Source: a bacterium (GTDB lineage Bacteria; JAMCPX01). Taken from it: a stretch of 12,091 nt of DNA. The DNA is taken from positions 1-12,091 of the forward strand of contig JAJYUJ010000055.1 in the NCBI GenBank assembly GCA_021792615.1. The letters run 5' to 3'. The notes under the pieces were generated by a model. It saw only the letters and a program-made list of their open reading frames with translations. It made no database searches and had not been told where the DNA came from. Position numbers and translations under genes: made by a program. This document shows, piece by piece, positions 3,982 through 6,322 of this stretch. Numbering within the stretch: position 1 is the stretch's first letter; each line of letters begins with the position of its first letter.

Positions 3982-4002
3982 ATTGCCTCCGTTCTATCAT
4001 AT

Positions 4003-4076
4003 TGCCCCCGACAGGAATCGAACCTGCGGCACAGGGATTAGGAATCCCTTGCTCTATCCAACTGAGCTACGGGGGC
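4003..4076 (-). tRNA. tRNA-Arg, anticodon CCT
   Basis: The 74-base minus-strand sequence folds as a complete cloverleaf: acceptor GCCCCCG pairs with CGGGGGC (7 bp), D-arm GCTC/GAGC around AGTTGGATA, anticodon arm AGGGA/TCCCT around loop TTCCTAA, a 5-base variable loop, and a T-arm with loop TTCGATT. The central loop bases CCT give the anticodon, which reads the rare AGG codon. The discriminator base is A, as in E. coli tRNA-Arg(CCT). The terminal CCA is not encoded. The 3' end is only 21 bases from the next minus-strand start codon and no terminator-like hairpin lies between. Confidence 0.96.
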
Positions 4077-4092
4077 ACATTTATTTTTCACA

Positions 4093-4121
4093 TACTTAGC
4101 TACTTTCACTGCTTCTGTCAA
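4093..4121 (-). promoter_or_regulatory. Likely sigma-70 promoter for tRNA-Arg and the envelope genes downstream
   Basis: On the minus strand a perfect TTGACA (4121-4116) is followed after 17 bases by TAAGTA (4098-4093), a poor -10 match. Initiation would fall about 10 bases before the tRNA. I see no other candidate close to the tRNA. The -35 box and the position are the support; the weak -10 lowers confidence. Confidence 0.5.
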
Positions 4122-4239
4122 CCACTACTATATATGGAGCAGCATCATTTTGTACAGGCTAAGAGGCACGCGTGTGTTTCTCGATCTTTATCACCACGCC
4201 GGTAAGCCCCGTCGAAAAAATACGTTGGAACCAATACCC

Positions 4240-4261
4240 TCCTGGCTATCACACAGCAGGA
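4240..4261. repeat. Small inverted repeat upstream of the lipoprotein promoter
   Basis: TCCTGGCT and AGCAGGA pair as seven base pairs with one bulged G around a 7-base loop, ending 9 bases before the candidate -35 box. It could be a regulator site next to the promoter or a chance repeat. The rest of the 288-base gap between 4077 and 4364 contains no convincing gene; apart from the two promoters and the second inverted repeat listed separately I see nothing firm in it. Confidence 0.25.
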
Positions 4262-4269
4262 ATTAGTAC

Positions 4270-4298
4270 TTGACAAAACCGGCGTATATTTTTAAGGT
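4270..4298 (+). promoter_or_regulatory. Candidate promoter of the repeat-bearing lipoprotein gene
   Basis: A perfect TTGACA (4270-4275) is followed at 17 bases by TAAGGT (4293-4298), a three-of-six match to TATAAT. Transcription would start near 4305, right at the left edge of the long inverted repeat, leaving a leader of about 60 bases. The -35 box is convincing and the -10 box is weak, as expected if an activator helps. Confidence 0.45.
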
Positions 4299-4305
4299 CA
4301 TACTA

Positions 4306-4339
4306 TTGTACGATCATGCTGTTACCATGATCAGTACAA
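4306..4339. promoter_or_regulatory. Near-perfect inverted repeat in the leader of the lipoprotein gene
   Basis: The left arm TTGTACGATCATG and the right arm CATGATCAGTACAA are complementary over 13 base pairs with one extra base in the right arm, around a 7-base loop (CTGTTAC). The repeat starts at the predicted transcription start and ends 25 bases before the ATG. It has no T-tract, so it is not a usual terminator. It may be a repressor operator overlapping the start site or a 5' mRNA hairpin affecting stability. The structure is directly visible; the role is inferred. Confidence 0.6.
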
Positions 4340-4364
4340 AACTTAAAACCTTAGAGAGATAACC

Positions 4365-5561
4365 ATGAAAAAAGAAAAAATATCGGGAAGCGTGAAATGT
4401 ATAAGTACCGCAATCATAGCGGCATTCTTAGGCGGATGTGTTGTGGTAGCACGGCCTGTTGGTGAGCCCGGACCTGGTCCGGGACCTCAGCAACCCGCCT
4501 ATGACCAATCCCAGCAGCCCCAGCCCGAAGAGGAGCAGCCTTCGTATCAGCCTGCGTCTGAATACCAGCCAGAATCAGGGGTGCCTGAGCCGCCATCCAT
4601 CACATTTACGGTGCAGCCGAGTGTGGTGGTGCTGCCGGATACCAACAATGTGTACGTTGTTCCGGATGCTCAAATAGACATATTTTTTTGGAATGGATGG
4701 TGGTGGCGTTCATGGGACGGCTATTGGTACCGTTCTCAGTATTACGACAGAGACTGGTCTTATTATAATCAGGTGCCGTCGTTTTATTACGAAGTAGACC
4801 CGCGATGGAGGGCATATTACAGAGATCATGACTGGCAGGGACACCCCTGGTACTACCAGCAGATCCCCGACAGGGAACTCAGAAATAACTGGAGAACCTG
4901 GCAGAACGATCAGTATTGGCAAAGACAAAGAACGTGGAACGTCAGAAATTATCAGCCCCCTTCGCGGCAACAGATGCAGGTGATAAGATATCAAAGAGAA
5001 AGAGTGTATCAACAGAAACAACAAGCAGAACAGCGGCACTGGCAGCAGACGCATGGTCAGCAAGGGCCGCAGCAACCGCGAGGCCGTCAGGGACAGCTAC
5101 CCTGGCAGCAAAGACAACAGCAGATCCAGCAGCCCCCACAGCAACAGTCGTATGGTCAGCAGGGCCCGCAGCAACCGCGAGGCCGTCAGGGACAGCTACC
5201 CTGGCAGCAAAGACAACAGCAGATCCAGCAGCCCCCACAGCAACAGTCGCATGGTCAGCAGGGCCCGCAGCAACCGCGAGGCCGTCAGGGACAGCTACCC
5301 TGGCAGCAGAGGCAACAGCAGATCCAGCAGCCCCCACAGCAACAGTCGCATAGCCAGCAGGGCACACAGCAACCGCGAGGCCGTCAGGGACAGCTACCCT
5401 GGCAGCAGAGGCAACAGCAGATCCAGCAGCCCCCACAGCAACAGTCGCATGGTCAGCAGGGCCCGCAGCAACCGCGAGGCCGCAAGGAGCAATCACAAGG
5501 ACAACAGAAACGGCAACACCAGCAGAAGCAAAACCGGGAAAACCCAGGACATCGGCAATAG
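4365..5561 (+). CDS. Aromatic- and Gln-rich lipoprotein with C-terminal 33-residue tandem repeats
   Basis: The 398-residue protein has a lipoprotein signal ending in lipobox L22-G-G-C25. Residues 30-78 are rich in Pro, Gln and Glu. Residues about 80-200 form the most conserved-looking part: VVVLPDTNNVYVVPDAQIDI, then FFWNGWWWRSWDGYWYRS and many W/Y/R residues. This resembles a family of envelope proteins I recall from deltaproteobacteria, with a strand followed by an aromatic GYWYR-type motif; I know of no established function. Residues 230-373 are four 33-residue repeats plus 12 residues, made mostly of Gln, Pro, Arg and Gly, probably disordered. The tail is basic and Gln-rich. The product should be anchored in a membrane and exposed to the periplasm or surface. 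The Shine-Dalgarno is weak (GAGAGAT). Several open frames on both strands here are shadows of the 99-base repeat. The gene is monocistronic, converging on the phosphatase gene. Confidence 0.85.
   Translation: MKKEKISGSVKCISTAIIAAFLGGCVVVARPVGEPGPGPGPQQPAYDQSQQPQPEEEQPSYQPASEYQPESGVPEPPSITFTVQPSVVVLPDTNNVYVVPDAQIDIFFWNGWWWRSWDGYWYRSQYYDRDWSYYNQVPSFYYEVDPRWRAYYRDHDWQGHPWYYQQIPDRELRNNWRTWQNDQYWQRQRTWNVRNYQPPSRQQMQVIRYQRERVYQQKQQAEQRHWQQTHGQQGPQQPRGRQGQLPWQQRQQQIQQPPQQQSYGQQGPQQPRGRQGQLPWQQRQQQIQQPPQQQSHGQQGPQQPRGRQGQLPWQQRQQQIQQPPQQQSHSQQGTQQPRGRQGQLPWQQRQQQIQQPPQQQSHGQQGPQQPRGRKEQSQGQQKRQHQQKQNRENPGHRQ
5052..5483 (+). repeat. Tandem array of four 99-base repeats plus a 36-base partial copy
   Basis: Copies begin at 5052, 5151, 5250, 5349 and 5448, exactly 99 bases apart, so the reading frame is kept. 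Each codes HGQQGPQQPRGRQGQLPWQQ, followed by RQQQIQQPPQQQS, with few changes (His to Tyr in copy 2, GP to GT and HG to HS in copy 4). Most differences are single bases, such as the AAAGACAACAG and AGAGGCAACAG variants that group copies 1-2 and 3-4. Such near-identity points to recent duplication or ongoing homogenisation, so copy number may vary between strains. Confidence 0.97.
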
Positions 5562-5588
5562 CGGCATGCAAAACCAGAGAATCAACTA

Positions 5589-5636
5589 AACTTCTCTGAC
5601 TTCACCTTGATTTTTTCTTATAAGAGGCGAGAAGTT
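5589..5636. terminator. Inverted repeat between convergent genes, possible weak terminator
   Basis: AACTTCTC (5589-5596) pairs with GAGAAGTT (5629-5636) across a 32-base AT-rich loop that contains six T in a row. The pair sits just after the lipoprotein stop, in the 152-base gap between convergent genes. The long loop makes it a poor intrinsic terminator. Apart from a short T-rich/A-rich pair at 5667-5691, I see nothing else in this gap. Confidence 0.25.
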
Positions 5637-5713
5637 CAATAAATATCAAAAATAAATAATTTTTGTTTTGTTTCCGGAATTGATAAACAAACTCCCTGTT
5701 ATATTTTCCGGGC

Positions 5714-6322
5714 TCAGCGGTAAAAAATGCCGTTCAACAGCCGTACAACAGGGAACCTTCTGTGGAACTCTATGATGTTCAAGGCTGCAAAATCCTGTTC
5801 GATCCTGAAAATGTTATTGAGCGGCAAGCCGAGTGCCTGTGCAATGATGACCCTGTTCACTGCACCGTGGGCTACGACCGCTATGTTCTGGTTCTTGTTG
5901 TTCGCCAGTATCTGATCCATCGCCTCCATTACCCTGCCCCTTACCTGAGGTATCGTTTCTCCGTTTACCGGTCCCTGCATGAGAGGGTCGTTTGCCCATA
6001 CATCGAATTCATCCGGATATTTTTCCCGCACCTCTTCAAACGTCATGCCCTCCCATGAACCGAAATCGATTTCCCGCAGCTGGGGAAGGATAATGGGTTG
6101 AAGATTGTAACGCTGTGCAATAATCTCAGCGCTGTTCTGTGCCCTGCTCAGGGGAGAAGAGTATACGAAATTCAAGGTTGTATGCTGTGCCAAAAAATCC
6201 GCAAGCATTCCTATCTGCCGTGTTCCGTTCTCTGAAAGAGGTACATTGATATTGCCTTTATATCTCATTTCATGAGCGTTCTCTGTTTCGCCATGCCGTA
6301 TCAAATAGATTTTGTTTGCCAT
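5714..6322 (-). CDS. Histidine phosphatase family protein, CobC/GpmB-like
   Basis: The 202-residue protein has the full catalytic set of the two-histidine phosphatase (phosphoglycerate mutase-like) superfamily: LIRHGETE with the phospho-acceptor H10, SSPLSRA with R60, LREIDFGSWEG with E84, and VAHGAVNR with H152. The ID-FGSWEG element, followed by EEVREKYPDEFDVWANDP, is typical of alpha-ribazole phosphatase (CobC) and related broad-specificity phosphatases. The length is normal. CobC removes the phosphate from alpha-ribazole-5'-phosphate in cobalamin synthesis, but no cobalamin gene is near, so the substrate is open; a mutase or general sugar-phosphate phosphatase is possible. The start has a good ribosome site (AAGGTGGAG). 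The gene is divergent from murA over 121 bases and convergent with the lipoprotein gene, so it is probably transcribed alone. Confidence 0.85.
   Translation of the reverse strand: MANKIYLIRHGETENAHEMRYKGNINVPLSENGTRQIGMLADFLAQHTTLNFVYSSPLSRAQNSAEIIAQRYNLQPIILPQLREIDFGSWEGMTFEEVREKYPDEFDVWANDPLMQGPVNGETIPQVRGRVMEAMDQILANNKNQNIAVVAHGAVNRVIIAQALGLPLNNIFRIEQDFAALNIIEFHRRFPVVRLLNGIFYR

Follow-up and report, generated by a model that had tools for sequence, protein, structure and literature searches.

The window (the whole 12,091-nucleotide stretch of DNA analysed here) carries a gene for a predicted lipoprotein in which an undescribed, well-conserved aromatic domain is joined to a long, basic, Gln-rich arm made largely of tandem repeats; the architecture as such (lipoprotein, folded core, low-complexity arm) is ordinary, and the locus clearly exemplifies repeat turnover specific to a lineage. 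The lipobox, the Trp- and Tyr-dense core and the near-identical 99-base repeats described in an earlier note on this DNA are all confirmed in the open reading frame at 4365-5561. As to function, the reading that we favour, tentatively and at somewhat less than an even chance, is that of an outer-membrane-sorted lipoprotein acting as an envelope scaffold or tether, with its arm contacting polyanions, and probably useful under envelope stress. The parts of the gene and the two neighbours of its site are as follows.

4365-5561, + strand: lipoprotein open reading frame, 398 amino acids, ATG start
4365-4436, + strand: lipoprotein signal peptide, residues 1-24, MKKEKISGSVKCISTAIIAAFLGG (sequence, LGGC found by pattern)
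4437-4439, + strand: Cys25, predicted lipidated residue (sequence)
4440-4592, + strand: acidic Pro/Gln/Glu-rich linker, residues 26-76 (composition)
4593-4955, + strand: conserved aromatic core, about residues 77-197 (60-row alignment A3, AlphaFold)
4962-5069, + strand: predicted long helix into the arm, about residues 200-235 (DSSP on AlphaFold models)
5042-5482, + strand: 99-bp tandem array, 4.5 copies, 33-residue unit [S/T]HGQQGPQQPRGRQGQLPWQQRQQQIQQPPQQQ (Tandem Repeats Finder)
5483-5561, + strand: non-repeated basic Gln-rich C-terminus and stop (sequence)
4002-4077, - strand: tRNA-Arg (CCT), left neighbour of the accessory site
5714-6322, - strand: histidine-phosphatase-family gene, right neighbour of the accessory site (PF00300)

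A lipoprotein is expected to carry a lipobox ending in [GAS]C near its N-terminus, preceded by a basic n-region and a hydrophobic stretch. The N-terminus of the window protein, MKKEKISGSVKCISTAIIAAFLGGC, fits this signal peptidase II substrate criterion, as a sequence match alone, with a predicted lipobox, LGGC, at residues 22-25 that ends in Cys25. According to the Lol rule of Escherichia coli, a residue other than Asp at position +2 leads to sorting to the outer membrane; the window protein has Val, not Asp, at this position, from which we infer that it would be sorted there. Residues 26-79, which follow the predicted anchor, contain 26% Pro and 17% Gln by composition count and have a net charge of -7. 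The reading frame can be taken as correct because the paralogues and 59 relatives encode the same core. The array leaves long open frames elsewhere, at 4942-5571 (- strand) and 5053-5589 (+ strand), which we rejected as genes and regard as mechanical by-products of the repeat; in the close relative G003 one of the alternative frames of the array is interrupted by stops, and the Gln frame is open to its stop codon.

The core is rich in aromatic residues throughout the family. Residues 80-200 of the window protein consist of 12.4% Tyr and 11.6% Trp (24% together), and its core, which is 45-69% identical to the 59 other rows of alignment A3, carries the family motifs [FY]FW[ND]G[WF]WW, WYRS, VP.FY, DP.WR and G..W.Y. 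Almost every invariant column of A3 is occupied by Trp, Tyr, Pro, Gly, Phe or Ser. Structure prediction of the core, a step proposed in the earlier note, gave a confident fold without a significant structural match: with A3 as input, AlphaFold produced a model with a pLDDT of 91.9 and a pTM of 0.85, running from a short-stranded beta meander through small helices to a long C-terminal helix, for which Foldseek found no match at E 0.001 either in the PDB (best E 1.6) or among viral models (none below 1.2), and the best Z obtained with VIA-align was 2.3. It is possible that the predicted core represents a new fold. Several of the weak Foldseek rows against the PDB were beta-propeller proteins, which hint at most at a blade-like strand meander. 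As a confidently predicted domain without a structural match, the core makes a cheap target for structure solution.

The suggestion that the protein is uncharacterised agrees with the database searches, in which the core falls under no Pfam or NCBIfam model. The window protein itself had zero matches in Pfam; when all 60 rows were scanned, the best match was DUF2396 (E 0.015, 2 rows), with none above the curated cut-off, and the Pfam WXXGXW repeat model, which covers WXXGXW / YXWGXW secreted proteins, was absent from the results up to an E of 10. NCBIfam returned nothing above cut-off, the only match being SclB, whose 17.3 bits fall far short of the required 325; we rejected this identity as low-complexity similarity in the arm. 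Nothing usable came from Pfam, NCBIfam or PDB-sequence searches, whether run with the protein, its core, the paralogues or remote relatives. Literature searches turned up neither the core motif nor a described family, although one paper has a single mention of WXXGXW, and no known binding domain was detected by sequence or by structure. A plasmid search with the core gave no match, so nothing points to carriage on plasmids.

A scan of named genomes yielded 59 loci with the same core, labelled Geobacter/Geobacteraceae, Syntrophus/Syntrophaceae, Nitrospirota, Desulfobulbus, Syntrophorhabdus and 'Deltaproteobacteria'; the deltaproteobacterial kin mentioned in the earlier note are thus real, with Geobacteraceae, Syntrophaceae and Desulfobulbus among them. 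When the sample was mostly one genome per family across the domain, the core matched in 14 of 386 genomes, and several genomes hold two to five family copies each. The family is unnamed, wide within certain lineages and sparse overall, and it matters that its core is kept across several phyla (including the small phylum of the window genome), frequently with at least two copies in one genome, without a family model. The window genome (G000; 77 contigs, 99.55% complete) encodes a pair of paralogues (254 and 239 residues, 57-58% identity), both with a signal-peptidase-I-type leader and without the 33-residue array. In G001, from the same genus, a related 357-residue lipoprotein is encoded at another site and has an 87-bp array of its own (2.1 copies). 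Non-lipidated paralogues (such as L002, L003 and L007) and homologues from Geobacter, Syntrophus and Nitrospirota share with the window protein both the core and the order of the parts, namely export signal, core, helix and Gln/Arg-rich arm, but unlike it they have a signal-peptidase-I-type leader, and their arms are shorter, otherwise repeated, or absent. A remote lipoprotein-like relative in G115 (L090:1096-2214, - strand) has three tandem core-like segments and no Pfam match.

Tandem Repeats Finder reported a single array in the window gene, with period 99, 95% matches, 0% indels and a score of 791. Any two of the four full copies show 3-10 differences in their 99 bases, and two positions, at offsets 69 and 72, separate copies 1-2 from copies 3-4, so that the pairwise grouping noticed earlier holds at two sites. 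Orthologous sites in relatives were located via the histidine-phosphatase gene, and the site at 4077-5714, between this gene and tRNA-Arg(CCT), proved to vary among close relatives. In the congeneric G003, which has the only near-identical locus and whose neighbouring phosphatase protein is 98% identical, the lipoprotein gene lies at the same site, and about 2.8 copies of its 33-residue unit, EHGQQGPQQSRGRQEQQPLQHRQQQVQQPPQQQ, are visible on a contig whose start falls inside the array; two of these copies are 87% identical to each other, the second entering the degenerate end of the array. The copies in the window are closer to one another (91-97% identity) than to those of G003 (75-85%), a pattern as expected from repeated homogenisation or re-expansion, and the recent expansion put forward in the earlier note is in this sense upheld as a lineage-specific one. 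In G004 the tRNA and the phosphatase gene are only about 100-200 bases apart and the gene is absent, and in G002 the site holds an unrelated 189-residue open reading frame with no Pfam match (loci L108 and L107 are those at the relatives' sites). The window gene, next to tRNA-Arg(CCT), is accessory and no constant neighbour.

The arm of the window protein comprises 198 residues with 44% Gln, 11% Arg, 11% Pro and 10% Gly, and carries a net charge of +22. In a full-length model built from an 8-sequence alignment the repeat arm is mostly coil, with a pLDDT of 36-46, as the idea of a disordered arm would have it; since the model rests on only 8 sequences, this low confidence speaks only weakly for disorder, and the arm may be disordered in vivo. 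When the arm is taken to begin 95 residues past the first residue of the FFWNGWWW motif, its length in the family ranges from 0 to 287 residues. Five Nitrospirota members have an arm length of 0, and the arm is therefore not needed for every function. In the short Nitrospirota members L074, L075, L076, L077 and L079 a His/Tyr/Arg-rich tail follows soon after the core, without a Gln-rich arm. Among the arms of at least 40 residues (n=51), Gln makes up 8-52% and net charge runs from 0 to +21, nearly all being Gln-rich and basic. Arrays are present in 32 of the 61 genes examined, and their period is divisible by 3 in all but one, a 17-bp repeat in L033 that lies upstream of the likely start; unit lengths vary by lineage (87, 42, 108, 75, 54, 93 and 24 bp among others). 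The arm keeps its composition (Gln-rich, basic, hydrophilic), not its sequence or length. The earlier note had named a conserved core with varying repeats as the pattern that would support it, and the family shows a constant core and a changing arm, with 19 invariant columns across the 60 rows of A3 against arms of 0-287 residues built from units particular to each lineage.

One could also speculate that only the core does the work, the arm being near-neutral low-complexity sequence in which in-frame repeats accumulate because they are not removed. A length that varies from 0 to 287 residues, an unconserved sequence and the unrelated units of different lineages all agree with this, but in almost every lineage the arms are Gln-rich and non-negative, their reading frame is kept over long distances, and several of the differences among the window copies are synonymous; we consider this explanation rather unlikely. 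If instead the arm sets reach or valency, as the tether reading would have it, the family would supply natural variants of differing length in which to study how flexible arms work in the envelopes of metal- and sulfur-cycling bacteria.

Hydrophilins are defined by a Gly content above 6% and a mean hydrophilicity above 1. Scored alone, as distinct from the whole protein, the window arm has 10% Gly and a mean hydrophilicity (-Kyte-Doolittle) of 2.38, and could be taken for a hydrophilin-like protectant, a disordered segment that is exported together with the core, holds water and acts in bulk like a chaperone when the cell meets osmotic, desiccation or metal stress, and not for a tether. The likeness in hydrophilicity extends to the family, in which the mean exceeds 1 in 51 of 51 arms of at least 40 residues; most members lack a lipid anchor, and some of the genes lie near BON-domain, CsbD-like and Metal_resist/LTXXQ genes, all of which speaks for a protectant. 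Gly, however, exceeds 6% in only 14 of the 51 arms, so the criterion does not characterise the family, a bulk protectant does not require the strongly conserved aromatic core to which these mostly Gly-poor arms are attached, and the predicted lipid anchor of the window protein favours a localised role. On balance we regard a protectant as unlikely.

No fixed genomic context emerged, as no neighbour is common to most loci. BON-domain genes lie within 5 kb of family genes in 4 of 12 genomes, with 0.17 pairs expected under random placement; the resulting P of 3e-5 is optimistic, the hypothesis having come partly from the same loci (2 of the 4 genomes). Some family loci also have CsbD-like, Metal_resist/LTXXQ or OmpA-family envelope proteins nearby. 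The non-lipidated paralogues L006, L007, L009 and L011, from four related genomes, adjoin an outer-membrane beta-barrel gene (PF13505). Such neighbours (BON, CsbD-like, Metal_resist/LTXXQ, OmpA, barrel), present in some genomes, suggest a place in the envelope and perhaps a link with stress; there is no BON, barrel or similar envelope gene beside the window gene itself.

A surface adhesin or biofilm-matrix protein, with the core on glycans and the arm on extracellular DNA or polysaccharide, would likewise combine a lipobox, an aromatic-rich core and a basic arm, and the barrel gene beside the paralogues in four related genomes would suit it. We hold this to be highly doubtful, as neither a surface-export signal nor a carbohydrate-binding family was found, and the barrel is a neighbour of the paralogues, not of the window gene.

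Under the favoured reading of a scaffold or tether, the lipid would anchor the protein at the membrane, the acidic Pro-rich linker would keep the core at a distance from that anchor, and the basic Gln/Pro/Arg arm, about 200 residues long, would extend into the periplasm or outwards. As a flexible polycation, the arm would form many weak contacts with peptidoglycan, LPS or exopolysaccharide, and the protein would thereby serve as a scaffold or tether in the envelope, probably of use under envelope stress, with in-frame duplication and homogenisation of the units determining how long and how multivalent the arm is. The tether role, the binding partner of the arm and its action as a polycation are proposals.

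TolA/TonB and Lpp are known envelope-spanning arms. The family resembles them in placing a low-complexity arm on an envelope anchor (Pro-rich, or with Arg/Gln/Glu-rich repeats in L037, L039 and L054) and differs from them in lacking TonB/TolA domains as well as any known energy-transducing partner or C-terminal attachment site. The relation between Lpp length and periplasm width is treated in PMC8824477. Pal and RcsF, according to PMC12826056 and PMC7553776, are outer-membrane lipoproteins with disordered segments, and to that extent share with the window protein a lipid anchor, a flexible segment and a folded envelope domain; the comparison is one of working principle only, given that the sequences are unrelated and that the longest flexible segment of the window protein lies C-terminal to the core and is built from tandem repeats.

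On the tree of the core, nine lipoproteins imply three changes of state, at least two of them forced by well-supported branches, and the lipoprotein form appears at three places: the genus of the window and one clade each of Geobacteraceae and Syntrophus. Anchored members of the first data set had arms of 152-287 residues and non-anchored members arms of 0-174, with medians of 189 and 92 among members with an arm (Mann-Whitney P 2e-6, ignoring relatedness). The proposition that anchored members are always longer-armed was weakened by a later member, L121, which is lipid-anchored with an arm of only 106 residues; with only about three independent origins of the anchor in addition, the link between anchor and arm length is weak. 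A fuller account, in which the small aromatic domain, possibly a new fold, would be the business end of the tether, in-frame repeat turnover would tune its reach and valency, and the protein would have switched between soluble and anchored forms two or three times, lengthening its arm on anchoring, strikes us as distinctly unlikely in its entirety. In the Geobacteraceae lipoproteins L037, L039 and L054 the arms consist of long runs of RQEDQKRQQD-type repeats, unlike the Pro/Gln arms found elsewhere, and could form a straight charged helix.
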